50,871 nucleotides of DNA from Halocafeteria seosinensis (lineage: Eukaryota > Sar > Bigyra > Bicosoecida). A model generated the notes under the pieces. It was given only the letters and a program-made list of their open reading frames with translations. It ran no database searches and had not been told where the DNA came from. Of the stretch, positions 20,804 through 50,260 are shown piece after piece (position 1 is the first letter of the stretch; each line of letters begins with the position of its first letter). The stretch is from positions 1-50,871 of the forward strand of contig LVLI01000584.1 in NCBI GenBank assembly GCA_001687465.1, read 5' to 3'. Made by a program: the position numbers and the translations under genes.

Positions 20804-23800
20804 TCAGTTCTTTCGTCGGCGTATTTCGTGTAGGCGCTCATCCGAATAAACGGGTTTCGTGGCTATGACTTTCATACTTAGTCCTGCCATCTTTTGGGTT
20901 CGAATGACCTGGTTTCCTAGCGAAAAGGGCACCAATGTTGCTGGAGGACTCAAATCTTTCACCTCCGACGTAGTCTCACTTGGTCTTTGAGAGAACGAGA
21001 CGCTGTTCCATTGGATCTCGTAAATTTTACTGACAACAGAACTCGGGAGACTTAGGCGCCACGCAACTTCACGAATATTATCGTCAAGAATACCACTCTT
21101 AGAGGCCAGTTTCCATACGTCCTTATAGTCGTGTCTAACCCAACAGTCATACCAAGGGGATGGAAATGGCTGGTCGTATTCTGAGAGATAGGTAGAGCCA
21201 CGGTCTACTGGAAGAGCCCCTTCTCGCTGCTCAGCAGCCTGATTGAACTCATGTGCGAAGGGAGCACTGGACGAACGTTCTTGCTGCCGTTTTGAAACAG
21301 AAAACGCTTGCTTCGCAGAAATTCCCATAAGGTTATCGTTAATATCACTTTTCAATAACAATACCGCGTCCAAACGTGTTCGAATTTTCCTGCGCGAGTG
21401 TTCATGATCCAATGCAACCATAGCCGGGGACTTCCGTTCCGACGAGAACGCACCATTCCAATCCAACTTCCCATACTTTGCCGTGACCCCTGCCCATTCG
21501 CATAGTGAGCCCCATGCCAAACCGCTCAGAAAGAACGCTTGAAACCCGGTAGCTGTAAGTCGTACTTCTGAAGTCCCGTCCGAAGCAAAAAATCCGGCAG
21601 TAAATACAAACGTGGGAGTGATGCCTCCAGAATCCATAGCTGCTGCTCCGGTTCGCTTAACGGTTGTGCCATATAAAGTAGTCGTTGGTGCTGTACTGGA
21701 AACACTAGCCGGATACAGTTCGGAGCCAGTAATTGTGTCGATCCACTTCATCGTAAACCATGATAAGGATACTATCTGTACCCGTATCAATTTAGATGTA
21801 AGATCCAACCCCATCGTGACCCCCGGAGAGTGCAACTTCATCAGGTATGAGACATCCTCAGGATTCTGCTTGAGCTGCGGGCCACTAGTACCCGCCATTG
21901 CCTCTAAGCTTACATCTAGGGTACCTTTTGACACCAGGACAATTTTCCCATTTTGGACCTCTCTCTTCAGTCTCCTCAGCGTTACCCTTTCTCCGGGTAA
22001 AAAGGTAGGGGGCATGCATCCTCGACTTGTCGGCAAATTGACAATATCGATATAGTCTGCCGTCTGTGTATCTAACAGTCTTATAGTCACTACTATCTTA
22101 TCATATGAGCAGCCACACAACAATTGTTCGGGAGTAGGGGGTTGCCCAATGCGTATTGCGTTTGTAGACCATTCATCGTTTCGCGCACCTAGATTAGTAA
22201 CTGAGACACTCTTTGAGAGAAACAGCCCTTCAATACTGAATTCCCGAGTTGGTTCACCAGGTACAATGTGCCGAACACTGTCTTCAACATTGGCGGATTT
22301 TAGAATTCGATAAACGTCACTAGCATGAGGGAGAAGGCACTCGCGTACGCCGATAACACCGTTAGCGCTTTTGATGTTACGCTTGTCGTATGACTTCCCG
22401 GAGGCTCCGAAGTCCAGGCACGAGTCGGGTGAAACAGAACCGCCAAGAACGCAAAGATTCTCTGATCTCCCTCTCACCGACAGCTGTTTAAAAAGTAGGG
22501 TCTTACATAACTCAGTAAAATAAGCAGCCATAGTTCCCCTGTCGGTAGATTCCATTTCTAAACAATCTTCAATCAAGCGCGGCATCCCGAAACAATGCCG
22601 AAGCTTCTCTTCTTTTCCATGCAGCACTTCGTCAAAGGCTTGTTTGGCAGAACTGGCCGTAAATTCTTCCACCACGATTACAGGATTATGTATCAGCATG
22701 GCGAACTTGCTGTCTGGTATGTCCTGGCCCCACTCATTATCGAAATGCACTTGAATTGAAGCTGAACAATCCGACAACACGAACTCCTCACGTCCTTCTC
22801 TAGTATATTTCGAGAACTCGCAGACAAGAGCAAAATTGGGAAACCCAGTGAGCCCCTTTATCCCCTCGTTATCCACTCTAAGCAAATTCCAATTACAGCA
22901 TCCTTTCGAGACAGCACGGTTGTCGTTTATCAACACGTAGGCAGCCGCCATGGCTTCGATGGGGCTCATTACATAGGTGCTCTCTGGCATCACATTGCTC
23001 AATGTCAAGAATTGCACTGACTGCTCGCACATATGTCTCAACCACTCTTCGTTAACGCCTACAGTGCTGCGGAGTATCTGCTCTAACCGACCCATCCAAA
23101 GAGCCAATGCAGGACTCTGTTGACTCACCGCTGATGATGACGCTCTGGATGTAATGGGAACCGGTGGAGACTTTGCAAGAGAATAAGGGGAAAGGGCCAC
23201 CAGCGAGATAGAGGACCTGTCTCGAATTGGGGAAAATCCGGCAAACATATGTTCTCCAAAGAAAATAGGCTGAACATTATGTAACGTAACCTGTGCTCCA
23301 CACCGTATCCCCAATCGAGGGAACGTCACGGTGTAAGTAGCTCCGCCTCTGCCGACGCTGCCACTAGCCATCCATAGCGTAAGTTGAGGATGATTGTCCA
23401 GCTGTACAGCGTTTGGATGTACTGCTGTAATGATTCCTGTGTAGTCCACCACTTCTGACTCATTCAAGTAAGGATTTTCGACCTTGAGTGCTCTTAGGGT
23501 GTTTTGCAGGGCCACCTCCGAGCAGATGTCAATCACAGTGGTATGGCCAGCGTGTTCGTCTGCATCTCCATGTGCTTGAAAGACTAAGTTGTGCCCTGTG
23601 CGGTCAAACGGGGACTTTTTGACGCGAAGATTTGTGATGATATAGTCGTTCCGAGACTTCAATACGTGGTATACTTTGCACATTCTTCTTGCAGGGAACA
23701 CAATGTCTACAGACCATCGCACTCGGTGATGGGTAGTTTCCTCGAGGCCACGCGTTGATAGCGCGGTGCATCTCCTTGCACAGTTCGTACACTGCTGCAC

Positions 23801-24889
23801 ATTGTCCGTTTTGATGTCTTCTTTGGCACCGTTTGCATCATAATCTTGCTGTTCAGGTGGATAAAACATGGAGCCATCTCGATGCAACAGATGGACTCCG
23901 ACCGCAAAGAACTCGTTGCCATTCCGATCATATTCCAACTTTCCGATTCCATGAATGAGACAATACACATTGATTGGTTGATCCAATTCAGAGGAAGTAT
24001 TTTTCTCTTCTCGCTGTACGTTTTGTTTGGCAGAGGCAGATGACTTCCCTCGGCGTCCATTTTTCATAATTTGTGACCAAAGTTTGGCAGGACAATCAAT
24101 TGACAAATTTACAAAGCAATAATCCAGCCTAGCCTGAGTTTGTCCTTGTCTCCAAGGAAACGAAAGCGGAACAGCCTTTGCCATGGGAAGGTCCACTACT
24201 GAACGAAGTACTTGAGAAGAGGGAAACAATACCAAGGCTTCTTGAGCTTCGACCACGTGAGCTTTCGGATAATCATACAATCTCCAAGACAGGCCACCTT
24301 CGGGGCAATCCTTCTCCTTGTTATGAACACCTGTGCCGTAGCCAGTGTCGTCGGCGCTCGAACTTGAATCTGAGCTTTGTGCTGCTAACATGGTGGTTGG
24401 AGGAATCAGCACGAAGCCATCCACACCCAAAGTTGACACGTTCGCGATTGCGCAATGAACTTTAACGTGGCCGAATCGACTCCGTACATCCTGCAATACG
24501 AGAAATGGTTGCGGATGAGGGTATCCGAACGCATCCTTCTTGGGAACGATTTCGGAACGTAATCGTCCAATCAGAGCGGGTTGGAGCAAATCCCCGGAGG
24601 TCCAGCCGTTGATGCTTTCACGATAATGCTTGTTATCACTGTCCTCTCCCCGTCGTCTTTTGCGGGACGTTGGCAGGAGATCTGCGACGCTAATGACCAC
24701 CCTCTGCTCGTCCAACGCGGCCTGAATGACATCTGAGTACTCTATATACCGCGTTAGATCCCCCTCAAGTTGCGACTGATCCAATAATGCCTCCAGGGAG
24801 TCTTGGATGTATTGCTCCCTCTCTAGCGCCTCCGATGAAGAACCACCCTCATGCTCCTTCTTCGCGTCGCCCTCCATCCGAGCTGCCAT
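20804..24889 (-). CDS. CTC1-like telomere-maintenance (CST complex) protein
   Basis: One uninterrupted frame. The first ATG is at 24,889, giving 1,361 residues (CTC1 of animals and plants is about 1,200-1,350). CTC1 with STN1 and TEN1 binds single-stranded DNA and recruits DNA polymerase alpha-primase for C-strand fill-in. Supporting segments: the OB-fold-like N-terminal VYCLIHGIGKLEYDRNGNEF; YIITNLRVKKSPFDR; then the block DYTGIITAVHPNAVQLDN followed by CGAQVTLHNVQPIF and SISLVALSPY, which resembles the central region of plant CTC1 ('YTG.I..V....V.LDN', then 'G..V...N.....', then '...SI.V...SP'). A further beta-rich segment precedes the C-terminus. The assignment rests on pattern resemblance, not a search. 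The alternative is another multi-OB-fold protein. It is read in the same direction as TK1, 467 bases upstream. Confidence 0.8.
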   Translation of the reverse strand: MAARMEGDAKKEHEGGSSSEALEREQYIQDSLEALLDQSQLEGDLTRYIEYSDVIQAALDEQRVVISVADLLPTSRKRRRGEDSDNKHYRESINGWTSGDLLQPALIGRLRSEIVPKKDAFGYPHPQPFLVLQDVRSRFGHVKVHCAIANVSTLGVDGFVLIPPTTMLAAQSSDSSSSADDTGYGTGVHNKEKDCPEGGLSWRLYDYPKAHVVEAQEALVLFPSSQVLRSVVDLPMAKAVPLSFPWRQGQTQARLDYCFVNLSIDCPAKLWSQIMKNGRRGKSSASAKQNVQREEKNTSSELDQPINVYCLIHGIGKLEYDRNGNEFFAVGVHLLHRDGSMFYPPEQQDYDANGAKEDIKTDNVQQCTNCARRCTALSTRGLEETTHHRVRWSVDIVFPARRMCKVYHVLKSRNDYIITNLRVKKSPFDRTGHNLVFQAHGDADEHAGHTTVIDICSEVALQNTLRALKVENPYLNESEVVDYTGIITAVHPNAVQLDNHPQLTLWMASGSVGRGGATYTVTFPRLGIRCGAQVTLHNVQPIFFGEHMFAGFSPIRDRSSISLVALSPYSLAKSPPVPITSRASSSAVSQQSPALALWMGRLEQILRSTVGVNEEWLRHMCEQSVQFLTLSNVMPESTYVMSPIEAMAAAYVLINDNRAVSKGCCNWNLLRVDNEGIKGLTGFPNFALVCEFSKYTREGREEFVLSDCSASIQVHFDNEWGQDIPDSKFAMLIHNPVIVVEEFTASSAKQAFDEVLHGKEEKLRHCFGMPRLIEDCLEMESTDRGTMAAYFTELCKTLLFKQLSVRGRSENLCVLGGSVSPDSCLDFGASGKSYDKRNIKSANGVIGVRECLLPHASDVYRILKSANVEDSVRHIVPGEPTREFSIEGLFLSKSVSVTNLGARNDEWSTNAIRIGQPPTPEQLLCGCSYDKIVVTIRLLDTQTADYIDIVNLPTSRGCMPPTFLPGERVTLRRLKREVQNGKIVLVSKGTLDVSLEAMAGTSGPQLKQNPEDVSYLMKLHSPGVTMGLDLTSKLIRVQIVSLSWFTMKWIDTITGSELYPASVSSTAPTTTLYGTTVKRTGAAAMDSGGITPTFVFTAGFFASDGTSEVRLTATGFQAFFLSGLAWGSLCEWAGVTAKYGKLDWNGAFSSERKSPAMVALDHEHSRRKIRTRLDAVLLLKSDINDNLMGISAKQAFSVSKRQQERSSSAPFAHEFNQAAEQREGALPVDRGSTYLSEYDQPFPSPWYDCWVRHDYKDVWKLASKSGILDDNIREVAWRLSLPSSVVSKIYEIQWNSVSFSQRPSETTSEVKDLSPPATLVPFSLGNQVIRTQKMAGLSMKVIATKPVYSDERLHEIRRRKN

Positions 24890-27800
24890 CGTGATTTCCA
24901 ATCAACCCGACCAACTTTATGTACAGTCTACTGAGTTAAAGAGGAGGGACGACTGAGGGACTTGTGAAGTTGGGGAAGTGAAGACGAGTCGGCGAAGCAT
25001 ACCACAGTGTAGGTTTGTTGCGGATGATGGTTCAGTAAGTGCCGGTAGGTTTGCGTAGATGATCTGGAAGGTTTTCTCATTTCCGAAAACAGTGGAATAC
25101 TACGGGATTGCACGGTATCTCCTACCCGTATTGCCAGATAATTACTGTTCCTTAGGTTTTGAATTGCACATTGAATGAAATGAAACGGACTGTGGATTTC
25201 ATTACTGCTGTCATATACAGTTACCGACAATTTTATCACAGTCGCTATACAGATAAACTTTTCACATAACTACACGCAAAATGCCCCTTACTTCGCTTCT
25301 AGGGGTAGTGGGCATCATACCACATGCATACTCATTTTAGTTTCTTGCTTTACACTGGGAACTGGCTCCTCCAGTGACTCCGCGAGGACATGCACCATAA
25401 TCGACCTTTATGTGCGAAGAAACTAAAGCATTGTATGTAATTTACTCTTCCTCTCTATTTCCTCCGTACTTGGCTCGTACACAAAATCAGCTTCACCGTC
25501 CTTTCTATCAGCTATTGAACTTCGAAATGAGAGTGAACCGCAAGCTTTTCGTCATAGCCAGGTTCTTTCGACTTATACTTGCTCAATCTCCGTCCTCATG
25601 ACTTATGCTTATCCGTTTGGGGTACAACTTGCTGTAGAGAGGTAACTAGGGCTTCCTAGTAGAGGAGTTTCATTGTCTGGTACATCGAACCCGCTTACCG
25701 AAGGATTTGTACTGACACTCCGACAGCATAACCATTTCATGGGTCCTGGCTTGTTAGTCGTAGCATTGGCGTTCCGTCGATGGTTGCTACGTCTTTCGGC
25801 GCATTCAGTTCTCGCGGTAGACAGGGAGGGCTGAATTCAGGTACAAACGGTTGTCCAGGGCACGCAGTCGACAGCAGGAATGAGTAGACGCACTTACCAC
25901 GGAGGACAAAGCGTATAATGAATGCTGTGTTTCAAAAAGGGGAACAAATATTTTCGTCGGCTGTGTTTGGCAGGAATCCGCGGCGCACTTACATTACTGC
26001 GTGGAGATTTCCAACTTCGGGCTGAACTGTCCCGAGCAGGTAGGTCGGCATCAGCACTCTGCATGAATAGGTTAAAGCTACTCCACAAAGCGTACACAGT
26101 ACGAAACAGTTTCTTTGAACGCACCCTGTAGGTAGGAAGTTGGCTGGTGTCATAAGATCGAATCATTCCTTCAAAGGGGCTTCGAGCCGTTTGTTCCGCT
26201 GTGCTGGAGTCCGACAGGGAGAATACTGCCAAGCCGTGGTAATATATTCGGTACAGGTAGGTTTCAAAATTGCCACACGCTTCAAGCGAAGTCCTGCCTC
26301 TTGATAGCGTATTACTTACTGGGACTAGAACGACCACTACTGGGCATTCTCTTCAGTGGCCGGAGACTCTTTGCTTGGTCGCGTGAAGTGTTGTCGACGC
26401 TGAGAGACTTCCGTAACTGTACGGACTTTGGCCGTCGACCTCCTTCCTCGTATATTGGGAGCTCATCTTCGAATTTAGCGGGATCCTGCAGAGAGACGCC
26501 TTGATGAATGTAGTCCCATATGATTTGGCATACCGTGTACGTACACTGAGTACCCCATAGCTCTCTCCGTAGACGGGGAGCGACTTGCAGCGAACCTCCC
26601 TTTCAGGCTCGCTGCCCATTTTACTGGTCGCCTTCGCAATTTTGCCAATTGATGCTCAGCTGAAAATAAACCATACCATCATGTGTATTCCACAGCCGCT
26701 CATCTACGGGTTTGGATTGGGTGAATTATTGCCAACTCACAACCAAATGCGACGAGTGGAGCTGTTCTCAGTGCCAGTACAAGTTGAACTTCCTTCCCAA
26801 TGTATACTACCTAATTAGCTTCATGGAAGCCGGAAAACACCTAGTACCTTTTGTACATACCTTTGACTTGGCGGTACCTTTGCCCAGCGTAGAAAATGAG
26901 TGGGTGGCTTGGAATTCCAGTCAGCAGAGTCAGTCGCAGCAACCAAGTGCCAGTGAATTGCCTACCACGTGACGAGAAGTGAAGTACTGTTGTACAACTG
27001 GACGGAAGTAGTAGCTTTAGCCCTTTAGCGCGCTCTTAAGACGGAGCAAGAATACATTCGATACAATAAACATTTGAGTCGCTCAATATTTCGAAGCAAA
27101 GCTCAACAAGGGAAGGTTACATTGTACATCACATGCAGCGGGACACCGAAGCGCAGGACAGCTGGAGACTCAGGAGGCTGGGAACTTCAATCACACTTAA
27201 ACCCATACAAAAGGCACATCTTGGCGGTCATGAAGTGAACACCACTTTTGGATTTGTGTATAGCAACTAAACACTCTTGTGGCGTTCTGATCCCGCCTGA
27301 TTCGTTCTTCCGCTTCTTCAAACCCCAGGAACCCCCACTGTACAAGATGTTCCTGTAGAGTACATGTGGTTGTACAAGAGTAGCAGTCTAATGATCACTT
27401 CCAATGGAATCCTCCATTCACTCTGCTACGGAAAAAGGCATGCATGCAGTGCATAGAGACCTGAATGGTAGTTGCGACTCCAGTTGTGACAACTTGTGAG
27501 TCGCTTTACTGACAGTAAATTACTGTAAGCCTTTACAGATTTTAGCTTCAAGGCAGGCCGGCAGATATAGCATCAGCAGCTAGTGATCAGCTGCCGCAAC
27601 AAGGACAAAAACTTTTCATCGCATGCGGGAATTTTCTCCTATTTGGCTCCTTCCTTGGTTTCCACAGGTCCGCTCGCAGTGCTCGCACATCTACAACGGC
27701 TCACACGATTGCATCAGGTGTAGCGTTCCATGAGCCTCTAGAAATCTCAAATTTGTATGGCAAATCTAGTGAGTGACTACATGCGGAGCAAAACGAGTCA

Positions 27801-29053: not shown

Positions 29054-30112
29054 ATGACGAAAGGAATGACACTTACTCCAAAGTCAAAGACCATTTCGGG
29101 GCTACAGAAAACTGATTTTAGGCTAGTATACTCGGTCGAGGGCAGTGTATATGACGGGAAGCAGCATTTCTGCCGTCCTTACCGCGTGGAAGAGACCCAC
29201 GGCTGTATCCATAACGGCTCCCCCGGCAACTTAGGGCGACAGATAGTTCCTATTCGTCCATTAGGAACTTTTACTTTGTCCATACCTTCTGGGAAGGAGA
29301 GTGCGACGTCAGGTGCAGAGCTGTCCTCTAAATGTGGGAGTGCTGCAAAGCAGTCTCCCATTCAGTCAAAGCTTCCTCTGCGGAAGGGAAGCTCGTTGCA
29401 AAGGCCCGAAGCCATATCCCACCAAATTCCTTACTCGTCGCCGCCAACATACTACAGGAAAGAAATACAAAGTTCGTGATTTCTTATTGGATTGTAGATC
29501 TATTCGGTCGCGTGTATTGTGTAACTTTACGCCTCACAGGAACCAGCAGCGGGAGAACGGCGCTGCAGTACGAAGTCCTGCAGCGAGAGACACTCAAAGG
29601 TAGATTCCCAAAATGTGTAGATGCGTATTGGCATATAATCTTACTTCTATCTTTGTTTCTCTGTCCCTGTTGCAGAATGGATGCAGCAACACTGGGCGTT
29701 CCCCTATCCTGGCCCACAGAGTTTGTCAATGCTAGGGAAGGAAACGGGCCTTAGTCCGCAACAGCTTGAAAATTGGGTACGTGTCAAATATGCGGCTTTA
29801 TTCAAGCTTGTCATCGCAAAAGAAATCATCAAGATTTCTGATCTGCAGTTTCGCAACGAGAGGAGGCGGCATTGGAGACCGTATATGGAAAAGAATTACC
29901 CGAGAGCTGCGGAGTTTGCGGAAGGCGTCAGAGGGACCAAACGGGACGGTGGCGTTCCTTCTCTACCACGAAACATGCTTGATATCTACGTTGAAGCAGC
30001 ATCGATAGCGAAGAAGAGATGGGGAGGTAACAAACCAGTGGACGATAGGAAGGGCCTGCGCCGAGTGAAACCTGAGTATTTCTGCAAGAGCGTCTACTTT
30101 CGTCCGTATTGA
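29054..30112 (+). CDS. TALE-like homeodomain protein, copy 1
   Basis: Join 29054-29471, 29540-29599, 29676-29776, 29849-30112; 280 residues. The homeodomain is assembled by splicing: EWMQQHWAFPYPGPQSL (helix 1 with the PYP of the three-residue loop extension), ETGLSPQQLENW (helix 2 and start of helix 3), then, across the phase-0 intron, FRNERRRHWRP with the DNA-contact Trp-Phe-x-Asn-x-Arg core intact. It should be a sequence-specific DNA-binding regulator, and TALE proteins often act as heterodimers. Before it lies a Cys/Gly/Pro block (CRPYxxEETxGCIxxGSP) shared with copy 2. After it comes a conserved YPRAAEFAEGVRGT...VPSLPRNMLDIYVEAASIA segment. The first intron has a weak GTTCGT donor, but it is at the same position and phase as the GTAAGT donor in copy 2. 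In-frame ATG 28,967 is an alternative start. Confidence 0.82.
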
Positions 30113-31556
30113 ATTCTTCCCCCCAAGTGTTTTAGTAGTGCGCGAAGTTTTGGCCTCCATGGTGAGTGTGTTGGGTGTTAAGGTTAGCTTCCGTCAGAGT
30201 GTGTCCGTCAATATGGAAGCACCGTCTGTGTGTAGTTCGTCACTTGCTCATTAGTGCAACATCCATCGTCTCGGTAACCTGAAAAGTACCTGGTAATTCG
30301 CTATACCCTGTATACACTTAAGTGATACATTCGACCAAACATCGGCTAAACGATCTTCCACGAACCTGGAACCACAGTACTATGTATTTTGGAGTAACTG
30401 AAGCTTCAACGCTTTGGACATCCAGTGTTTGTGAGGCTCTAAACATGATACGTTATTGTTATTTATAGTCCGCGCTTGGGCAAAACCTCAATGTGTGCAC
30501 TGTGGTCGTTAGTGTGCAGTCAGCTGAAGGGAGAAGCCGGGGAAGCACGGAGGACGATTAGTCTAGTAGAAGTCCTGGATATCAGGACGCTGTTCCCCTT
30601 TTTGAGGCCGAATTATCCAAAATTGCTCCTTAAAATTACTCCGAAGCCATCCGTTTTAGCCACGGTGCTTGTACAATTCCACTCTCAGCCTGGCTTCCAT
30701 CCACCGCCAGTGTGTATGGCAACTTTGCAATCTGGCTTTTCTCAGTAAATTTACAGACAAGCGACTAACAACTAACGGTTGCAACAGGTACAAGGCACCA
30801 TTAGCCTTAGGGAGGATGGCAGTGTGTCGCGCCGTGCTACAGCGGTGCGATGTTCTCCGCCCGTTGCGATCCACTAACTTCTTTCCCTATAATATGCACG
30901 ATACGCACGGGCGGGTAACTAGGCTATATATGATATGAAAACCGATGCACCGCGTATGTAACTTTGGAGAGTTGGCGATTGACCCTTGAGTCGAGTGCGA
31001 GGGACTGCCGTTGCGAGTCGGCACCGCAGAACAACCGTCAGGCGAGAGTGAAGACGCTTGCAGGTAGTAGTGGTAGATATGTGCTTCTGGATCGAGTATT
31101 GTTCCAGTGCACTTCGATTCCCAATCAAGTTGGAAATATATTGAAAGTTTTTGTCCTTGTTATATTCATCACCGCGCTATGGAATTGCTGTATCCGGCTG
31201 TTTAACACTGATCTGATGTCCTAATCCCCCCTAACCGTAACCTGTGGAAACAGGAAGAGACAAACCGAAGCAAAACCAAACAGCGAACCGGTCAAACGCC
31301 TCCTCATTCTGTGTATCTTATCTGAGAAGCCAATTTTATCCACTGATTTCTCAACGTTAGCTGATACTCCTGATATCTACAGCACTCTGTCTCTAAAACT
31401 CGACCGTGGGAGCGGGCGCAATTGCGCTTCGAAGAACATTTCAAGGTGGAGTTGTTTGGTCAACCACGGCGACTCTTTACACGTGGGGGATACGTAAGGA
31501 GTTTCAGACGAGCTGCTGCTACGTATCAAACCATTGCCAAACAAACAAACTGCAAC
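30113..31556. other. Spacer between the homeobox genes
   Basis: About 1.4 kb with no supported gene. It must hold the promoter of copy 2 and the terminator of copy 1. No repeat shared with other parts of the window was noticed. Confidence 0.45.
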
Positions 31557-32676
31557 ATGTCAACCGCTTCCCAAGAGCGTGTGCTTACGAAAGACGAACC
31601 AGGCTTCACCCTACAGCAAGTGCCACCTGTCGAACCGAGAACAAGCACCGGAATGCAAGCGGAAGGACGATATTGTCGCCCATATGTACCCGAGGAAACC
31701 AGAGGATGTATTGTCCGCGGTTCGCCTATTAACATTGGCTGTCGAATCTTTCCACTTCGCCCTTCTCGAGACTTCAAACTGTGCCAAGCTTTCGGAGAAG
31801 CTTCGAGCGTCCGACGTACCCCAACGACCACTAGGAGCGAGAAGTGTACTTCAAAACATGGGTTTCTTAGAAAAGTGCAGCCGCCAAGAAGTACTCAGCC
31901 AAGTAAACTCCAGGAAAGAGCTGCGCAATGCTCCTCCAAGTTCCCCTTCTCCAAACCTCCACATGCGTACAGTAAAGTCCGCAGCAGTAAGTTTACAGAA
32001 CCTCAGAGCGTATTATCAGTTCTCAATGCCCATACGCGCTTTGCCGCTTTGTTGGTCCATCAGATGAGACCACTACCTCCCGGGGAGATCGTCTTAATGT
32101 ACTAAAAGGTAATTCAACTACTGTCGCAACGTCGCACCTCTAATTTCACGGCTTAGCTTGTTTGGGAATCGCAGAATGGATGGTCCAACATTGGTCATTT
32201 CCATATCCCGGTCCAACCTCGCTAGCGGAACTGAGTGAGAAGACTGGGCTTACCGGGGAGCAGCTTGAGAATTGGGTAAGCAACGTTTAAGGGGGCATCA
32301 TGTCCACCCACAAAATGGAAGTTCGAGATTATGCTCTCTCTCTGTGGCTCGTGATGTGCAGTTTCGTAATGAGAGAAGACGACGCTGGAGACCGTATATG
32401 ACAGATAATTATCCTGAAGCATTGAAATATGCCGAGCGAATTCGCGGAACTCGGCCAGAAGGAGGTATGCCATCCCTTCGTCGGGAGCATCTGGACTTCT
32501 ACGTGGAGGCAGCTTTCATCGCTTTCACTCGCCGAAACCAGAAACAAGCACCCAATAAAGGGGTAACGCGATGCGCATCCATTAAACGCTCTCTGGAGAG
32601 TGAGAATCATCCGTCACTTCGTGTGAAGGCCCAGCGACCTGCCAACTCACAGCCCCACAATGAATGTCCCCGTTGA
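31557..32676 (+). CDS. TALE-like homeodomain protein, copy 2
   Basis: Join 31557-31986, 32064-32108, 32175-32275, 32362-32676; 296 residues. Same four-exon plan and intron phases (1, 1, 0) as copy 1, and exon 3 is exactly 101 bases in both. The homeodomain reads EWMVQHWSFPYPGPTSL, EKTGLTGEQLENW, then FRNERRRRWRP after splicing, with the W-F-x-N-x-R core. The N-terminal block CRPYxxEETxGCIxxGSP and the post-homeodomain block (YPEALKYAERIRGT, MPSLRREHLDFYVEAAFIA) are shared. Between the shared blocks the proteins diverge strongly, so the duplication is old. The C-terminal tail is longer and basic. The tandem arrangement suggests related or paired regulators. Start chosen at the first ATG in the open frame. 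Confidence 0.83.
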
Positions 32677-33019: not shown

Positions 33020-33190
33020 GGCTTATCTCGAGACGTACTGGGGGGATAATTTGGAGACAGTATTATTAATTATGCAACCTTGATTATGAATAATTATTGC
33101 ATTGATGCAAATCTGTATCAGTTAAAGCATTAAATTACGCTCATACTTGGTAGATATCTGGCCTGTATAAAGCATATCAGGCGGGGGACC
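33020..33190 (-). repeat. Dispersed repeat, copy A
   Basis: Matches 46,237-46,379 with small gaps: both contain a CTTATCTC(C)GAGACGT start, the words ATTATGCAACCTT and GGTAGATATCTGGCCTG, then TATAAAGCA, and end in GCGGGGG. On the minus strand both copies keep the codons for LYTGQISTK followed by a stop a few codons later. This may be the 3' end of a coding mobile element. Confidence 0.7.
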
Positions 33191-39288: not shown

Positions 39289-42200
39289 TTATTCAAAAAG
39301 AGTCTTTCGACGCCGGCTTACACTTGCACGACGTTGATAGGTCGCTTCATGCAATATTCGCTTTCGTTCTTCTTGTTTGCGAAAGTATTTATATGACTCG
39401 AATCTTGCCTGGTCACGACTACCGGTGGGAACATCCACAGTGCCGGTGGTTCTGGACGAACTGCCAAACTGGATTCGCGCCATAGGATTCTCTCTCTGTA
39501 GCGGCATCCCACTTTCCTCCGCATAAGCCATATTAATAGGCACATGGGTTGAGTTACTGCCCTCATCTTGCTCTCTTCTTGACGTTGCATACATTAAGGT
39601 TCGCAACTTCCTTATGACGGGGGCTAGCTTGGACCGTAATATCTCTAGTGGATCTTGATTCTTCAGCTCCAATAAAACGCGTACAAAAGCACACGCAGTA
39701 AAGGTGAGCATTAACAGTTGAAGAACCAGAGTCGACACGGTTACAACAGCTTGGTTCGATGAGGCGTCGACATATAAGGACAACAGACCCAAAGATACCG
39801 TTATGGCACAGCAGATAGACTTGAGGATCTCCAACCAGTTGAGGGAGGTGTTGAGCTTGTATGGTTGCATTATAGTGCTTACAAATGCTGTGAAGAGCAA
39901 CACCACACTTACTAAAACTGCTTGATCCAAAGAAGGGCTCAAAAAGGACACCAACAAAAGTAGCACTGTGCGGCGGATAATTACCAACGCGGGCCACAAG
40001 TATCCTTTGTTCCGCACACGAAACCCCCGAATAGTACTCAGGAATTGTTTAAAGAGTTCCGGAGTACTCGCATTCTTTCGACTCCAGAGCAGATAAGCAA
40101 TCATGAAAAAGGGTACCCCAAACACAATTAGGACTACAGTGCCTGCTCCAAGAAAGGCAAGAATTGTATACTCACTCGAAGAAGTCGTCATTCGAAGGGA
40201 CGCCTTTAAACGTTGGTTTCCATAAACTTCCTTCGGATAAGTATTAAATATGTCCACAACTGTAGTAGATACTCCCGTATGGACGAGTCCCAGCAGCAAA
40301 TGAAGGGGTTGTAAAGCTTTCTTCAATGAATGCGTCAACCACGTTTTCGATGAGAAACAAGCCTTCGCATTGAGGAAGACCTGGAAAAGCAAGGACACCG
40401 AAATCAATAGCCAAGGTATAGCAATCGACAAAATAGCACTCTCAAAGAAACCAAAGTGGGTAACACAACGAAATGAGTCTGCCTGAGTGGGGGCCATGAG
40501 TGACATCTCGGCGAAATCCTTAAACCACTGAATGCTCCCAGCGAAAGGATTCGCGTCAAGTTTTCCTAGGAGCGCAAGAATTTGAAGGAAATCAAGAGTA
40601 AATACGAGGTATAGCTGCAGCTCTTTCATTACATTCATTTTGCCAGCGTTCCGTAACACTGAATCGAGAATGTCACGAGACAAATTTGGCTTTCCGTCCG
40701 CCTCAGTAGTCCGCGATTCCGACTGTGATACGTCTTGCTCTTCCGTATTCCTAGAAACTGTTTTTAGGCTTTCATACGAGATTCCAGGGACAACTTCATC
40801 GCTTTTCTTGTCTTGCACCACTGCTCTTTTAGACTGAAGAACATTCACCCCCACCACCACTGACACCGCTACAAGGACTGAGAATGCAACCGTGACCTTG
40901 TCTTTCACTGGGTTCCGACAGCGCACGCAACGTTGTTTCGTTTTCACGTATCCCGCTTCGCATATGTCACAAAGCGGTCCCTTTCGTCCTTCACTACAAC
41001 TAGTATGAAAGTTAGTTCGATTGACACGACACGCCGAGGCAGGAGTACATTGGTGCATCACGATGGGGACACTCTCACGAATTTGCTGCACAATTTGTTG
41101 CTTTACAGTTCCATCTTCGGGATGCACTGGACTGCCTTCCGCACAGAGCTCGCACCAATATCCAGACAGCATACGCAGTTGTCCTGACGAACATTTGAAT
41201 CCCTCGGTGGGACAGGGCATACACTGCGTTCTTCCTCGTAACGAAAACAATCCGTCAGAACACTGTCGGCACCCTTTGTGGTTGTTGGGATGAGGCTGAA
41301 ACGCCCCTTCTTTGCATGGTGTGCAGTTCAATTCCTCGCCGCTGATTGCATCAAAATTTCTTGCATACCCAGAGGGGCACAAACACTCAGTTCCGTCTTT
41401 GGATGCCACTTCGTTCTCACCACAATCCACTCTAGTGGTACTGACAAATAGAGGTGAGTTGCCAATACTCCGGTTGTTAACCCGAACATCGATTGAAACA
41501 TCTCCTTGAGCCTGCAATATGACTTGGAATGTAAAGCTTCGAGTAATTTCACCTGGTTGGACCCCTACTGGAAAATCGACAGAAATAGAAGATACGGACA
41601 GACCCTTGTTAACTGGAGTCGCTGATAAAGAAAGGTAGAATCCGTTGTCTTTTGTACGCTTCCTGAAGGAGCGTGTCCTCCTCGTGGGCGTCGACATTAG
41701 AAGTGCGCTTGCAGCAGTATTCCCGAATCGGTCAGCAAGAAGTATATCGATATTAACCGGCGTGTTTACTGGTTTGCTACTATTGTCCACCCGAACAAAC
41801 GATTGAGAAGAGTTGACTTGTCCGGCTGCGAACGTTGACTCCACACTTAACTTGCGAGTGTCGGTTGCAGAGGAGAAATTGGCGCCTCGGAGCCACTGCT
41901 CTAGCGTCAGAATTGAAAGAGTGTACTCGACACGCGGGAGATATTGAAATGCTGTAAACAGTGGCTGCTTATTGGTGGTTAAACTATGGGAACTATACTG
42001 GATCAAGGCTCGGAACCGTCTTCTGTTCTCAGGTGCAATGACCGCAGACACAGGAGAGAGCTCCAGCCATTCTCCCAATACAAGAACCTCTTTAAGATGT
42101 ATCGGCTCTAGTCGGCTAGCATTGTCCGCCGATGTCAAGTTCCCCTTCGACAGTAACTGTAGCCTAAAGTCTATGGGTCGAGCCATCACAGGCTTGCGGG

Positions 42201-45200
42201 CGACATTCACCACTGTCCACTCCACATGTGTTTGTCCCAAAGGCTTCAACTGAATCTCCACCGGGTGCTCGGGGCAAACAAATACGGAGGTTACTACGAG
42301 CTCTACTTTGAGCCATAGCGAAACACCATCAAAAAGTGTCGTTGCCGGGTTTGTGGGTTTGCTTTCATCGAAAGTAGTCTCGGAACCACGTAAGGAGTCT
42401 GTCTCAAAGAAAATCCATATCTGGAATTTCCCTGACTGTGGAGCATTTCGCGGCGCTAGTACCAAATCAAAGAGCTTTTGTTGAACCATCGTCGCTCCTA
42501 ACTGTCCTCGAATCGGGAACGTCGTCTTTCCTGGGCTTATCCATCCTGGGGATTGAAACTCACCAACGAGCTCTTCTCCACTAGGCTCAAATGCTCGTGC
42601 TTTCCAGTTTGTTTGGAATTCTCCCTTGTTAGTCATGAGTACATCTCTCGATTTGTCTGGATCACTTGTGCTCATTTGAAACGCGATGGTTCCCTGAGGG
42701 AGTTTCACCAGCGCTTCCCGAATGGTCATCGAGACTGTAATTACCAGTGTCTTCGAGGTTCCGAGTTGTGTGTTGTGAGTCTCGACAAAAATTTCAGAAT
42801 TTATCTGCCCTTGTGGAGCTTTCGTAATGTCGAAGACAATACGTTCTTCAACTGACGTTACTGTATCTCCCACTTCATTCGGGGGAGGAGGGATGACAAT
42901 TCCTGCAAGTTGCGGCCCCAAACGGAACCTATACTCCACATAAGGACCGACATTTAAGACCACAGAGCGTACAATCGTTCGCGACCGATTGTTGCTATCG
43001 GTTTTTGCCGCCTTTCCTTCATTTATCTCGATCTCCTTGGGAATCACCGCAGAAGTTATTTCTACAGATTGTACCAACTCGGTGACATCTACCTCCACGT
43101 CCCTTTCTGGGGATAAAACTGTTTCCCCATTGACATTGACAGGAACTCGTAAAGGGATCAATACGTTGGCGTCTTCCGCTTCAGATAATGTCCGACTGTC
43201 ACCGGTGGAGACCTGACTTGTTAATAGAGGTACTTGATTCTCCAAGAAGTACGTCACGTTTGAATGATATCTGATGCTTATGCTGTAACTGTATAGAGCA
43301 CAATCAGTGAAATATGAGGCTTGACTCCGAGAACTACACTTGTGAACTCCAAGCTCTTTAAGCTGTAGAATAAAGGGCAGGTCCTTGTCGAGTGATGTAC
43401 CCTCAAGCGTATCCTGACATCCGGAGTAGATCAAAGTTCCATTGCCATTGGATGCTGAAACACCTGGGGCACATTGTATCTCGAACTGTGGACTAATTCC
43501 GTTATGACTTTGAACGGTGACGTTTACCAGGAATAGGCTTCCTTCACTGCCCTTGGAGTATCGGATTGTTTTTCGGGCTGCTAAACTCATTGTTGTAACA
43601 CAGTCGAAAGAAAACTTTCTCCCACATCCTGATTCAACGATATATTCAGAGTTGATCATCGAGGGAGAGAACGAAGGAGTTTGAGTGACAGAGGATCTTG
43701 GTGTACACGAACCGGTTGGAGTGGTTGTTGGAGTGACTGACGCCGTTTGACTAGCGGTCGCTGTTATACTTGCCCTTGGTGAATCCGAATTGCTCGGAGT
43801 GCAAGAAGCGGTGCGGCTATTTGTTGCAAAACTCGTCGTTGACGACATCGTAGTCCGCGACGAGCTTAGGCTAGGGGATGCCGTAGTCGTTTCGGAGGAT
43901 GTACCAGAAGAGGAAGATGTCGCTGTACTTGTTTGCGTCGCTGTAGCAGTTGCGGACATGGTTGGAGTCGACGTTTCCGAATTGCTCGGAGTGCAAGAAG
44001 CGGTGTGGCTATTTGTTGCAGAACTCGTCGTTGACGGCATCGTAGTCCGCGACGAGCTTGGGCTAGGGGATGCCGTAGTCGTTTCGGAGGATGTACCAGA
44101 AGAGGAAGATGTCGCTGTACTTGTTCGCGTCGCCGTAGCAGTTGCGGACATGGTTGGAGTCGACGTTTCTGATGATGTTGCAGAGGAAGTCATTGTGGGA
44201 GAGGCGGTAATTGATGGGATTGGACTTGAATCTTGCAGTTGAAAGCGTAAAATGGGCAAAGATTGAGTCCCATTAAGAGCCCAGGTTTCATTATCCCATC
44301 GCTGAACACCTTGGGAGTGATACAGCTGACCTCGTATATCATCCAACGTGTTTGAAATGCCTACGTGTATTCGAGTCAAAACATCCTCTTGAGATCGGTC
44401 GTCTCCTACCAACCGAGCCCCATTGGCGCTATTATACACCGAATATTGTACACTAATCACACCACTTGCCGGGTAGTCTATATGTCCAATGATTCCGCCA
44501 CCATCATGGACAACACCAGAAGCATACGTATTCGTTATGTATACACTCCCTGTTGCTGCTGTTTCCCATCCCCCTGTGCCCTGCCCAGTAATCCCGCCTG
44601 CCAGATGACCATCAATATCTCCTCGTGTGTAACAATCTATTATGTGTACTTCACCATTGTCAGCCGCTGTTTGATCTCCAGTAATACCACCAGCCTTGTC
44701 TCCTTCAATGTTTCCTGTCGAATATGATTGCGTGATACGCACATGACCATGCAATTTACCGGCCTGATCTCCACAAATACCACCTGCCTGCAATCCAATT
44801 GTCCCAGTGGAATAACATTGGGTGATATTTGCAGTCCCATGATCGTCCCCTAGATCTACTCCTGTGATACCACCTGCCTCAAGACCCTGTATTGTTCCTG
44901 TTGAATAGGAATCCGATATCTTAATGTGGCCTCCGTGCTGACCTGCATGACGACCACATATACCACCAGCATAATTATTCGTGATCTCTCCTGTTGAGCT
45001 ACAAGAATCCACGATAAAATATCTTTGGTTTTTTTGAACGATAAATCCACCACTTTCTGCCGGGATCCCATTCTTGAGATGAACATTCCGAATCAAGGGA
45101 GCTTCATCCAAGGAATCAATGTTAATACCATCATCCATAACTTTAATTAATCCAAGAAAGCCTTCCTCAACATCCTGCAAGTCAATGACGTTTCCTTCCG

Positions 45201-45630
45201 CACCCCCACCATCAAATACTTCCTCCGCATCGAGGGAAATGCGAGTATTACCATTGTATCCATGGTCTTTCCAATTGAGGACAGTACAACTCATCCGAAA
45301 GAGATTCTCACTGGGGAAATGCTGGAAACATGATTCGTTTCCAGCAGAGATACTCTCGCGCAAGTCATCGTCGGAAGCTCCATTGGCAGCATTCCATACA
45401 AATGGGCACATTATGCTAAAACCCAAGAGGATTCGCATTATAGCATTTGATGGATGCAATTCAATTCTGCGTCGTCGTTTCTTCCCGTCACCAAAACCAC
45501 CAATTTCCTCGCCAGTCGTTCCTTTCCGGGATGACTTGGGGAGTTCAACTCCGAGTCCATGTATATGGTGATTATTGTCTGGCGAAGAGGAACGGTACCG
45601 GCAGTAGAAGCAGTCCACTGGTCTCACCAT
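39289..45630 (-). CDS. Giant cell-surface protein: GLUG repeats, Ser/Thr stalk, Cys-rich and multipass membrane domain
   Basis: One intronless frame of 2,113 codons. ATG 45,630 is the first, but ATG 45,438 (residue 65, MRILLGFSIMCPFVW) gives a better signal peptide and matches the start of the paralogous pseudogene. Order: GLUG-type repeats at about residues 190-400 (units like AGGICGDQAGKLHGHVRITQ, YSTGNIEG); a Ser/Thr stalk at ~480-650; a long beta-rich extracellular region with calx-beta/Ig-like character; a Cys-rich module near 1,390-1,540 (CLCPSGYARNF, CKEGAF, CRQCSDGLF, CMPCPTEGFKC) like ephrin-receptor/GCC2-GCC3 modules; then several membrane helices from ~1,570 to ~2,000, separated by a large loop, and a basic cytoplasmic tail. 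Proteins of this plan occur in protists and algae and are thought to be adhesion or sensory receptors with a TRP-like C-terminal membrane region. Ligand and role are unknown. The stalk contains a recent internal duplication. Confidence 0.88.
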   Translation of the reverse strand: MVRPVDCFYCRYRSSSPDNNHHIHGLGVELPKSSRKGTTGEEIGGFGDGKKRRRRIELHPSNAIMRILLGFSIMCPFVWNAANGASDDDLRESISAGNESCFQHFPSENLFRMSCTVLNWKDHGYNGNTRISLDAEEVFDGGGAEGNVIDLQDVEEGFLGLIKVMDDGINIDSLDEAPLIRNVHLKNGIPAESGGFIVQKNQRYFIVDSCSSTGEITNNYAGGICGRHAGQHGGHIKISDSYSTGTIQGLEAGGITGVDLGDDHGTANITQCYSTGTIGLQAGGICGDQAGKLHGHVRITQSYSTGNIEGDKAGGITGDQTAADNGEVHIIDCYTRGDIDGHLAGGITGQGTGGWETAATGSVYITNTYASGVVHDGGGIIGHIDYPASGVISVQYSVYNSANGARLVGDDRSQEDVLTRIHVGISNTLDDIRGQLYHSQGVQRWDNETWALNGTQSLPILRFQLQDSSPIPSITASPTMTSSATSSETSTPTMSATATATRTSTATSSSSGTSSETTTASPSPSSSRTTMPSTTSSATNSHTASCTPSNSETSTPTMSATATATQTSTATSSSSGTSSETTTASPSLSSSRTTMSSTTSFATNSRTASCTPSNSDSPRASITATASQTASVTPTTTPTGSCTPRSSVTQTPSFSPSMINSEYIVESGCGRKFSFDCVTTMSLAARKTIRYSKGSEGSLFLVNVTVQSHNGISPQFEIQCAPGVSASNGNGTLIYSGCQDTLEGTSLDKDLPFILQLKELGVHKCSSRSQASYFTDCALYSYSISIRYHSNVTYFLENQVPLLTSQVSTGDSRTLSEAEDANVLIPLRVPVNVNGETVLSPERDVEVDVTELVQSVEITSAVIPKEIEINEGKAAKTDSNNRSRTIVRSVVLNVGPYVEYRFRLGPQLAGIVIPPPPNEVGDTVTSVEERIVFDITKAPQGQINSEIFVETHNTQLGTSKTLVITVSMTIREALVKLPQGTIAFQMSTSDPDKSRDVLMTNKGEFQTNWKARAFEPSGEELVGEFQSPGWISPGKTTFPIRGQLGATMVQQKLFDLVLAPRNAPQSGKFQIWIFFETDSLRGSETTFDESKPTNPATTLFDGVSLWLKVELVVTSVFVCPEHPVEIQLKPLGQTHVEWTVVNVARKPVMARPIDFRLQLLSKGNLTSADNASRLEPIHLKEVLVLGEWLELSPVSAVIAPENRRRFRALIQYSSHSLTTNKQPLFTAFQYLPRVEYTLSILTLEQWLRGANFSSATDTRKLSVESTFAAGQVNSSQSFVRVDNSSKPVNTPVNIDILLADRFGNTAASALLMSTPTRRTRSFRKRTKDNGFYLSLSATPVNKGLSVSSISVDFPVGVQPGEITRSFTFQVILQAQGDVSIDVRVNNRSIGNSPLFVSTTRVDCGENEVASKDGTECLCPSGYARNFDAISGEELNCTPCKEGAFQPHPNNHKGCRQCSDGLFSLRGRTQCMPCPTEGFKCSSGQLRMLSGYWCELCAEGSPVHPEDGTVKQQIVQQIRESVPIVMHQCTPASACRVNRTNFHTSCSEGRKGPLCDICEAGYVKTKQRCVRCRNPVKDKVTVAFSVLVAVSVVVGVNVLQSKRAVVQDKKSDEVVPGISYESLKTVSRNTEEQDVSQSESRTTEADGKPNLSRDILDSVLRNAGKMNVMKELQLYLVFTLDFLQILALLGKLDANPFAGSIQWFKDFAEMSLMAPTQADSFRCVTHFGFFESAILSIAIPWLLISVSLLFQVFLNAKACFSSKTWLTHSLKKALQPLHLLLGLVHTGVSTTVVDIFNTYPKEVYGNQRLKASLRMTTSSSEYTILAFLGAGTVVLIVFGVPFFMIAYLLWSRKNASTPELFKQFLSTIRGFRVRNKGYLWPALVIIRRTVLLLLVSFLSPSLDQAVLVSVVLLFTAFVSTIMQPYKLNTSLNWLEILKSICCAITVSLGLLSLYVDASSNQAVVTVSTLVLQLLMLTFTACAFVRVLLELKNQDPLEILRSKLAPVIRKLRTLMYATSRREQDEGSNSTHVPINMAYAEESGMPLQRENPMARIQFGSSSRTTGTVDVPTGSRDQARFESYKYFRKQEERKRILHEATYQRRASVSRRRKTLFE
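43783..44172 (-). repeat. Two 192-base tandem repeats encoding the Ser/Thr stalk
   Basis: TTGCTCGGAGTGCAAGAAGC occurs at about 43,790 and 43,982, 192 bases (64 codons) apart, with the following bases nearly identical. The copies encode SETSTPTMSATATAT, TSTATSSSSGTSSETTTASP and SSSRTTM-type blocks. The exact codon multiple keeps the frame, and high identity points to recent expansion. Such stalks are expected to be O-glycosylated. Confidence 0.85.
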
Positions 45631-46236
45631 GACTAAAATATTAATTAGCTGTGCTCCACTGGTAAGGGCAATAATAGCTCCGCTGTGTCAAAAAAGAGGG
45701 GAGTTTGATTTCAAACGGAAATCTTTCCTTTGTTTCGAGTTTTTATCTCCTGCCTGCGACCAACCCCACGCGCAAACAAAGTAAACGCAAGACACAAAAC
45801 AAAACAAATCTTGAGTGTGCCACACCCTAGCTCACAAGGCACACATGTACGAAGCATGAATGAATACAATCACTATGGATGCAGGTAGAAAACAAAAACC
45901 ATGTAAATATGGGATAGCGTACCACCGGTACAATTGTATTCGGGTATTGCAGATTGCTTACAATTGTCCTGGCCTTAATTCTAATTGACGAATGTCAAAT
46001 AATGATAACTTGCTTGTGGTATCGTGAATCGCGTTACGTATAAAATTGCTACACTTTACAACACATTGAACACATTGTTGGTTATGTCTTAGGTCCATAG
46101 AGGACGGATCGGGCATGGGGGAGACAAAGGGAACAAGGTGACAAGTTGACCGGGGGAAAAACCTGCCAGGGCGCGTGCGGCATTGCTTCAATTTGGGCTG
46201 AGGCGATTTCTGAGCCCCCCGAGGGGCCCGAGGGCA
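45631..46236. other. Upstream region of the giant gene, no gene seen
   Basis: About 600 bases between the giant gene start and the dispersed repeat. No supported coding sequence. It should contain the promoter of the minus-strand gene. Confidence 0.45.
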
Positions 46237-46379
46237 AAATTGGCTTATCTCCGAGACGTACCGGGGATAATTTAGGGGCAGTATTATGAATTATGCAACC
46301 TTCATTATGAATTAGTTAGAGCATTAATTACGCCCATGCTTGGTAGATATCTGGCCTGTATAAAGCACAATGGCGGGGG
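46237..46379 (-). repeat. Dispersed repeat, copy B, cut at the mitochondrial junction
   Basis: Same sequence family as 33,020-33,190. The similarity stops at GCGGGGG (46,373-46,379), exactly where mitochondrial sequence begins, whereas copy A continues into other nuclear DNA. The minus-strand codons LYTGQISTK plus stop are kept. Confidence 0.75.
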
Positions 46380-46387
46380 TGCCAAAT

Positions 46388-46445
46388 CGGTTAGAACGCA
46401 CCGCTCATAACGGTGTTGTTATAGGTTCAAGTCCTATTAAGCCCA
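46388..46445 (+). tRNA. Mitochondrial tRNA(CAU), 5' end missing
   Basis: The 3' two thirds are perfect: anticodon stem CACCG/CGGTG at 46,399-46,403 and 46,411-46,415 around loop CTCATAA (anticodon CAU, 46,406-46,408); T stem ATAGG/CCTAT (46,421-46,437); acceptor 3' strand TAAGCCC (46,438-46,444) and discriminator A. The expected acceptor partner GGGCTTA and D-stem GTTC are absent; instead the repeat end GGCGGGGG precedes. The gene is therefore broken within the D arm and should not fold normally. CAU could mean Met or lysidine-modified Ile. Confidence 0.8.
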
Positions 46446-46447
46446 AC

Positions 46448-47035
46448 ATGAAACGTTTTGAAAATCTTGAAAAAACACAACAAAAAACAAGAAGTTTATC
46501 ATTAGAATATGCAATTTTCGTGAAACAAATGTTTCCTTCAATTAAAATTTATGCCCAGGGACAGGATTTATATATAAAAACTAGTCCAAAAAATATTTGA
46601 CGCATAGCTCAATTTCTTAAATTACATACGAATTCACAATTTAAATTGTTAATGGAAATTTGTGGTGTAGATTATCCCGAAAAACAATTTCGATTTGAAG
46701 TTATTTACCATTTTTTAAGTATACATTACAATAGTAGAATTAACTTAACAGTTTTTGTACAGGATGCTCAACCTTTACCAAGTTTAAATGATATTTATCC
46801 AAATTCAAACTGATTAGAACGAGAAGTTTGAGATATGTTTGGTGTTTTCTTTACTAATCACAAAGATTTACGACGAATTTTAACTGATTATGGTTTTAAG
46901 GGGCATCCTTTGCGAAAAGATTTTCCGTTAACTGGGTATACTGAAACTCTTTATAATGATTTTTTTAAAAACATTGAATATCAAGAAGTTTCATTATCAC
47001 AAGCTTATCGTAATTTTACCGTTTCAACTGAATAA
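46448..47035 (+). CDS. nad9: NADH dehydrogenase subunit 9 (complex I, 30 kDa)
   Basis: 195 residues read with TGA as Trp (for example at 46,598-46,600, KNIWRIAQFL). Nad9 is part of the peripheral arm of complex I. Family marks: the [18 protein letters not shown] segment, the WLEREVWDMFGV motif (with two TGA codons), and the [21 protein letters not shown]-terminal signature. It starts two bases after the broken tRNA and ends with TAA. The reading frame is intact, so this copy is functional mitochondrial DNA or a very recent nuclear transfer. In the nucleus the TGA codons would stop translation. Confidence 0.95.
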
Positions 47036-47059
47036 TAATTACAATAGATATTCAAAGTA

Positions 47060-48736: not shown

Positions 48737-48779
48737 TTTATTTATCTATTTTTGATCGATTAATTTTTAATTAAATCGA

Positions 48780-49445
48780 ATGATTTTATATTTAAGTGAT
48801 TTTTTTATTATAGGATCCAATTATGGATTATTTATAGGTAGTATTTTATTGAGTATAACAAGTGTTAATCCTATACATTCTATCTTAAGTTTAATTAATA
48901 CTTTTTTAACAGGATCTATTTTTTTAGTTATTTTAAACTTAGTCTTTTTTGCATTAATATTCTTAGCAGTTTATTTAGGAGCAATTGCAATATTATTTTT
49001 ATTTATTGTTATGATGTTAGATATTAAAATAACGAATGAATCGTATTTACTTAGAAATTCTTGATCGTTTTTTGATATTTTAACTTTAACATTGCCGTTC
49101 ATTTGATTTCATATAGAATATCAAAATTTTAATATTTTAGAAATATTAACTCGTTATATCAATATTATTCAGAATACTGGAAATGATTTATTTACATTTG
49201 ATGTGGATTACTTTTGGTATGTAGAATTATTAACACATGTGCCACATGTTGTTGAAATCGGTCGTTATATGTTCGAAAGAATGACAATTGCATTTTTACT
49301 ATGTGGTTTATTATTATTTATTGCAATGGTGGGTGCTATTGTAGTGACCGTTGAACCTTTAGGAACAAAATTTTTATACCAACAAGATCCTGGTGATCAA
49401 GCAATAAGAAGTGCTCAAACAAGTTATTACTCTAATTTATATTAA
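48780..49445 (+). CDS. nad6: NADH dehydrogenase subunit 6
   Basis: 221 residues with TGA as Trp. Small membrane subunit of complex I. Recognised by NPIHSILSLINTFLTGS, then FFALIFLAVYLGAIAILFLF followed by IVMMLDIK (the family signature), and the C-terminal LLFIAMVGAIVVTVEPLG. Frame intact. It lies 43 bases after nad2 and 6 bases before rpl5. Confidence 0.95.
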
Positions 49446-49451
49446 ATAATT

Positions 49452-50027: not shown

Positions 50028-50043
50028 GATTTTCCTATTTAAC

Positions 50044-50115: not shown

Positions 50116-50118
50116 AAC

Positions 50119-50192: not shown

Positions 50193-50260
50193 AATTTGTG
50201 AAGGTTTTATATTTTAAATTTTCATTATTCATTACAAGATTATTACTAGAATTTATAATA

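Follow-up and report, generated by a model that had tools for sequence, protein, structure and literature searches.

Two adjacent TALE homeobox genes of the bicosoecid Halocafeteria seosinensis as members of a larger gene subfamily

Introduction

The fungal HD1/HD2 and yeast MATa1/alpha2 systems each comprise two adjacent homeobox genes; in the HD1/HD2 case, one gene belongs to the TALE class and the other does not, and the two are usually divergent. In Chlamydomonas, which carries HAP2 in its genome, both partners, GSM1 (KNOX) and GSP1 (BELL-type), are TALE proteins; each mating type supplies one of them, and the heterodimer arises once the gametes have fused. Known TALE dimers unite two different groups of the class, the green algal partners being a KNOX and a non-KNOX protein, and Joo et al. 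report that the two non-KNOX proteins failed to interact in all three green algal species examined (PMC6219170). The OUROBOROS (ORO) and SAMSARA (SAM) proteins of Ectocarpus, likewise TALE proteins of a stramenopile, are described as having only the homeodomain in common and as heterodimerizing through it (PMC6368402), so dimerization need not require a KNOX domain. Here, we describe two neighboring TALE homeobox genes, A and B, from Halocafeteria seosinensis, a halophilic unicellular predator. They lie on contig LVLI01000584.1 of the GenBank assembly GCA_001687465.1, within a stretch of 50,871 nucleotides that was analyzed as a whole and is called the window below. An earlier, sequence-only reading had presented them as an ancient, duplicated, and possibly partnered pair of regulators.

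Structure of Genes A and B

Gene A occupies positions 29054–30112 and gene B positions 31557–32676, both on the forward strand (Table 1). Each consists of four exons, which, joined at GT–AG sites, encode proteins of 280 and 296 aa, respectively. All six introns of the two genes have GT–AG borders and are 66–86 nt long; the intron phases are 1, 1, and 0 in A and likewise in B, and exon 3 is exactly 101 nt in both. Intron 3 splits helix 3 of the homeodomain (TGG/TTT; LENW/FRNERRR) at a point that we take to lie between W48 and F49 of the homeodomain numbering, and the TALE homeodomain is whole only after splicing. The splice models, with their GT–AG borders and shared phases, thus confirm the earlier description of two four-exon genes whose homeodomain is restored by splicing. 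The start codon of A is uncertain, since a further in-frame ATG is located upstream.

Table 1. Exons of genes A and B in the window.
Feature	Positions	Strand	Content
Gene A, exon 1	29054..29471	+	N-box (CRPYRVEETHGCI..GSPGNLGR..PIRP..TFTL) and IPYSSPP motif; alternative upstream ATG at ~28967
Gene A, exon 2	29540..29599	+	GT–AG, phase 1 at both ends; layout also in B, C, and D
Gene A, exon 3	29676..29776	+	Homeodomain helices 1–2 and start of helix 3, ends ...LENW; length (101 nt) shared with B, C, and D
Gene A, exon 4	29849..30112	+	FRNERRRHWRPYM, remainder of helix 3, C-terminal extension, stop codon
Gene B, exon 1	31557..31986	+	N-box and FPFSKPP motif
Gene B, exon 2	32064..32108	+	Splice model; phases as in A
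Gene B, exon 3	32175..32275	+	First part of homeodomain, ends ...LENW
Gene B, exon 4	32362..32676	+	FRNERRRRWRPYM and C-terminal extension, stop codon

A six-frame search of the genome with the Homeobox_KN profile (PF05920) gave 11 matches at the level of exons; two fall within the window (29678–29776 and 32177–32284). The Homeobox_KN scores are 49.8 bits for A and 49.9 bits for B at a Pfam cut-off of 24, and the generic Homeodomain model is just passed as well (24.4 and 26.6, cut-off 22.9), so that both profiles named in the sequence-only reading recover the domain in both genes. In A, residues 154–201 (48 residues) cover positions 11–55 (45 positions) of the Homeodomain profile. The three added residues lie between helix 1 and helix 2, where TALE proteins have them, and the PYP motif is present. 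Helix 3 has the TALE form WFxNxRxR; once spliced, both A and B read LENWFRNERRR. Residues W48, N51, R53, and R55, presumably DNA-contact positions, are conserved in both proteins. Among solved structures, the MEIS2 chain is the best relative in the profile search (2.1e-11), and yeast alpha2 is found as well (3.4e-06).

Members of the Family and Their Transcripts

When B was used as a query against the genome (20 matches, E ≤ 1), A was found together with a gene on contig C368 (gene C), a gene on contig C107 (gene D), and then more weakly other TALE genes; a match on contig C415 with an E value of 0.80 was regarded as chance. Intron phases of 1, 1, and 0 and a 101-nt exon 3 recur in C and D, that is, in four of the four genes, and GT–AG borders are found in all 12 introns. 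The idea that the pair is unique was rejected with the finding of C and D. Beside D on C107, there is also a degenerate tandem copy (L014, ~4422–5209), which has broken frames and shows 67% identity to D in an alignment of 867 columns. Judged by their sequences, A and B are not a unit of two; they belong to an old subfamily that comprises at least four genes and, in addition, one decayed copy. Our literature search yielded no published account of this family, an outcome that is no proof that none exists. Viral contigs gave 27 pattern matches, none of which is a relative of A–D.

A protein collection was searched through shared words and with length limits. The query with B returned only the protein P0001 (one of 532 candidates, E ≤ 10), and a profile built from the four genes returned P0001, P0002, and P0003 (6,841 candidates, E ≤ 0.1). 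The last of these, also a TALE protein, appears animal-like on visual inspection. EukProt is the source of P0001 and P0002, which correspond to transcript records GECG01014770.1 and GECG01000124.1; we take GECG to be the Halocafeteria transcript set. P0001 is identical to the spliced gene C at 277 of 278 residues, and P0002 differs from the spliced gene D (325 aa) by two substitutions and a two-residue indel, with every difference falling in exon 1. The three introns, including the one in helix 3, are therefore confirmed by transcripts in the sister genes C and D only. As for the predicted splice of LENW to FRNERRR in A and B themselves, neither gene is among the transcript-derived proteins of this one collection, whether searched with B or with the A–D profile. 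Own-sequence queries of five TALE genes retrieved a transcript-derived protein for three of them (C, D, and a gene on contig C148) and none for A and B. This absence fits stage-limited expression and equally low expression or assembly loss.

The transcript-derived proteins of C and D also served as tblastn queries against the window as a control. The exons of A and B scored up to 134 bits, with at most 24.3 bits elsewhere in the window. The best match in the reversed window had 22.3 bits, and the highest score over 20 block-shuffled windows was 25.8 bits. Residue differences between genome and transcript (one in C, two plus the indel in D, four in the C148 gene) could be allelic or strain differences, and a diploid genome is possible.

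Conserved Regions and Predicted Fold

The Homeobox_KN profile is above its cut-off in all four proteins. Upstream of the homeodomain, A, B, and C have an N-terminal block (N-box) with 12 positions invariant across the three sequences, two of them Cys; D retains only its later part. A genome search with exon 1 of A (29129–29470, E ≤ 1) matched A, B, and C alone, while exon 1 of D appears weakly (E 0.012) with B as the query. Behind the homeodomain, a block of about 50 residues, the C-terminal extension, is common to A–D at 56–67% identity. No Pfam family matches either the N-box or the extension. KNOX1/KNOX2, ELK, MEIS, and PBC/PBC-like domains were not detected in any of the four proteins in Pfam scans at E ≤ 1, at which a highly diverged version is possible; by these scans, A–D belong neither to the KNOX/MEIS class nor to the PBC/BELL class.

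A structure of P0001, which represents gene C, was modeled with AlphaFold from six alignment rows. The mean predicted local distance difference test score (pLDDT) is 52.5 and the predicted template modeling score (pTM) is 0.35. The model is confident around the homeodomain only, with blocks of residues 151–230 at 69–89, and the helices at 227–237 and 250–268 are lower (57–77). Its top fold match is MEIS2 (0.9 Å over 47 columns, Foldseek E 0.05), and the best matches are the MEIS, Exd, PBX, and TGIF homeodomains, with TM-scores by target of 0.53–0.84. None of the 114 matches reached a Foldseek E value of 0.001 or lower, because little outside the domain folds confidently. Thus, A–D share with MEIS-like homeodomains (MEIS2 structure 3k2a) the three extra residues with PYP, the WFxNxRxR helix 3, and the modeled fold; unlike MEIS2, they have no MEIS/KNOX N-terminal domain detectable by Pfam and carry their own N-box and C-terminal extension.

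Age and Relationships of the Four Genes

Over the homeodomain and extension, the nonsynonymous divergence (dN) is 0.29–0.40 across the six pairs of A–D. The synonymous divergence (dS, NG86 method) was incalculable in five of the six pairs, which we read as saturation, and is 1.62 for the pair of A and D. This pattern points to purifying selection on A–D, the protein having been kept where synonymous sites look saturated, and marks the genes as old, selected duplicates. By this measure of sequence, A and B are old duplicates under selection and not decayed copies. The earlier description of a divergent, anciently duplicated pair standing side by side in a tract with few long open reading frames (ORFs) is borne out: between 24901 and 36974, the sole stop-to-stop frame of at least 200 aa is the one holding exon 1 of B.

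The pair has less claim to be special. In its favor, the N-terminal identity, which ranges from 16 to 32% in the six pairs, is highest between A and B (32.2%). However, the homeodomain of A is closer to that of C (73.9% identity) than to that of B (71.7%), and in a quartet test the three topologies lie within 1.2 log units, with the A–B grouping lowest. A sister relation of A and B is thus unsupported by the sequences, the quartet giving no preferred topology, and a recent tandem duplication does not account for their linkage.

A homeodomain tree of 14 rows and 57 columns, several rows of which were joined by eye across introns and which was rooted on the row of a gene on contig C99, contains an A–D group (93/86) and a MEIS-like group (90/92). 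The TALE genes on contigs C160, C103, and C41 are placed with MEIS2 and P0003.

The position of the homeobox intron was compared as well. In all four genes, it lies at 48/49 in phase 0, one base off 48(2/3). The introns at 44/45 and 48(2/3) were named by Joo et al. as the most ancestral of TALE homeoboxes (PMC6219170). The A–D intron coincides with neither class; it may be an old intron that has moved, or it may be new.

Other TALE Genes in the Genome

By exon count, the genome has up to 12 TALE genes: A, B, C, D, one each on C148, C136, C160, and C99, two on C103, and C41, where two homeobox exons represent one or two genes. Stramenopiles analyzed by Arun et al. are given as having 2 to 14 TALE genes each (PMC6368402), so the number found here is ordinary. 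The C99 gene was considered as non-TALE, a candidate assignment dropped on account of its three extra residues relative to the Homeodomain profile (56 residues over 53 positions). Pfam detected a homeobox in 10 of the 12 proteins or ORFs scanned, several of which are single ORFs and not whole proteins, and it detected no KNOX, MEIS, or PBC family in these 12.

Outside the A–D family, B matches the C148 gene best (43.4 bits). The transcript-derived protein of the C148 gene, P0004 (833 aa, four differences), is long, and, unlike in A–D, the homeodomain is not interrupted by an intron. Helix 3 of the C148 and C136 genes reads WFRNERKR, of which WFRNER is shared with A–D; the N-box query hit neither gene. 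A relative of the C148 protein, P0005 (817 aa, from a 26,583-base contig), shows 85% identity over 91% of 101 queried residues; from this match, a relative of H. seosinensis seems to have been sequenced already. At C103:77173–78278 (L016), two TALE genes stand head to head, with their homeobox exons ~0.9 kb apart, and, as a possible divergent homeobox pair, they are more promising than A and B.

Possible Functions of A and B

It is fairly probable, in our judgment, that A and B encode TALE homeodomain transcription factors of a bicosoecid subfamily with at least four members, which would bind DNA, probably as dimers, in a limited stage or condition. DNA would be bound through the homeodomain, a domain identified from the sequence and the model. 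Dimerization would probably involve the homeodomain together with the conserved C-terminal extension, with a MEIS-like TALE protein of this genome as a likelier partner for A or B than each is for the other. Regulation and the choice of partner would be governed by the N-box and the C-terminal extension. Both genes are probably expressed only under a condition, or at a stage of the life cycle, that the public transcriptome does not cover.

Several points weigh against this interpretation. DNA binding, dimerization, and expression of A and B are all deduced, and absence from one protein collection is weak evidence on expression. In the homeodomain tree, no branch reaches the star level of the tool, and 7 of the 11 inner branches are drawn open. 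Moreover, A–D have Arg at position 50 and Glu at position 52 (Gln in D), whereas MEIS2 has Ile and Ala; given the Arg at position 50, they may recognize a DNA site other than the one usual for TALE proteins.

HAP2-GCS1 exons were found at C217:89347–90904 (L044) as four matches over profile positions 66–501, three of them above the cut-off and the best with 8.3e-30, and a HOP2/TBPIP match is located at C195:36310–36462 (54.6 bits, 3.1e-13). These matches suggest gamete fusion and meiosis, and the genome may thus bear signs of hidden sex; for Cafeteria, the other bicosoecid with a genome, the account cited here states that no sexual cycle is known (PMC6972860). With the HAP2 and HOP2 matches, and with A and B not among the transcript-derived proteins, a life-cycle role of the two genes is possible.

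The same observations, together with the tight linkage of A and B and their TALE class, would agree with the two proteins being each other's heterodimer partners, active in the zygote or determining mating type in the manner of GSP1/GSM1 or ORO/SAM, and the latter proteins, from the same supergroup, do heterodimerize through their homeodomains (PMC6368402). We nevertheless consider this quite unlikely. A and B belong to one subfamily and share the N-box, homeodomain, and extension, whereas ORO and SAM, compared here from their descriptions and not their sequences, share the homeodomain only; the conserved domains of ORO and SAM outside it match nothing else in databases (PMC6368402), which is also true of A–D. 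In green algae, one partner is a KNOX and the other a non-KNOX protein (PMC6219170), while A and B, in which Pfam found no KNOX, ELK, MEIS, or PBC domain, lie in tandem on one strand of one contig and are not alternative idiomorphs. That non-KNOX proteins failed to interact in three green algae speaks against A binding B. The likeness to GSP1/GSM1 put forward in the sequence-only reading is not supported, and neither is that to a fungal mating-type pair: A and B are both TALE genes in the same orientation and are part of a wider family.

A and B could also be redundant or stress-response duplicates unrelated to sex, like the duplicated salt-responsive genes of this species, for which 494 duplicate clusters with 1,652 genes are reported, 43% of the duplicates being differentially expressed (PMC5447177). 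The ordinary size of the TALE family among stramenopiles (PMC6368402) is in line with this, but the words homeobox and homeodomain occur zero times in the main text of the former paper, supplementary tables aside, and N-termini as dissimilar as those of A–D are unlike redundant copies; this explanation seems somewhat unlikely. Decay of A and B, with C and D as the working genes, is very hard to credit. Within the family, only C and D are found as transcript-derived proteins, and the copy beside D shows what clear decay looks like; however, the frames of A and B are open over 280 and 296 codons, all six splice pairs are intact, and the homeodomain positions are kept. A neutral copy old enough for synonymous saturation is expected to be broken, and the conserved proteins therefore argue that A and B are not decaying.

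The interpretation of A and B as stage-limited TALE factors can be carried further, to regulators of an undescribed bicosoecid sexual cycle that would be silent during growth, switched on in gametes or zygotes, and partnered with MEIS-like TALE proteins. In this specific form, we regard it as unlikely.

Other Features of the Window and Genome

A dispersed repeat with 73% identity between copies occurs just downstream of gene B (33020–33187) and at 46242–46379, directly before a stretch of mitochondrial-type DNA. Between 34731 and 35234, units of 190 nt and 42 nt are each present in two near-identical (95%) copies, 262–275 bases apart. A serine carboxypeptidase piece lies at 6056–7039 on the forward strand (Peptidase_S10, 151 bits), with what looks by eye like a relative at 9339–10133 on the reverse strand. 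The reverse strand also has a 1365-aa open frame at 20804–24901, which showed no Pfam match at E ≤ 0.01, and a single 2132-aa open frame at 39289–45687, in which a repeat region, a Ser/Thr-rich stretch, a Cys-rich part, and hydrophobic stretches can be seen by eye.

The right end of the window (46385–50871) is AT-rich DNA of mitochondrial type, with nad-like frames recognized by eye, tRNA-Gln, and tRNA-Arg. To our knowledge, red algal mitochondria lack nad7; the presence of this gene here speaks against a red alga as the source. The stretch reads TGA in place of Trp. The bicosoecid Cafileria is reported to use mitochondrial code 4 (PMC6723347). Contig C95 (L043) has low-GC DNA up to ~C95:6480, ending in a 215-base stretch identical to the start of that DNA in this window, and beyond it C95 resembles, by eye, a repeat of this window. 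The arrangement represents either a mitochondrial insertion into a repeat or a chimeric assembly.

Profile searches of the genome gave no match to light-harvesting protein families, and an algal source was rejected on this ground. Ectoine synthase was found at two loci, each as three consecutive pieces as expected of introns, with all six above the cut-off; ectoine genes are reported for H. seosinensis (PMC5924519). There were six matches to the P2X receptor, four of them on C103 and one above the cut-off, where 13 P2X genes have been given for the species (PMC5447177). With the mitochondrial TGA usage, these features agree with H. seosinensis as the source.

Significance

TALE pairs run the haploid–diploid switch in green plants and brown algae, which raises the question of the age of this role in stramenopiles. 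A bicosoecid with at least ten TALE genes and with HAP2 and HOP2 matches makes hidden sex testable through specific, named genes. Should A and B be ordinary stress regulators, they would represent a routine family expansion. Should they regulate a sexual cycle in the way outlined above, they would demonstrate a TALE life-cycle switch in a stramenopile that is heterotrophic and only distantly related to brown algae.

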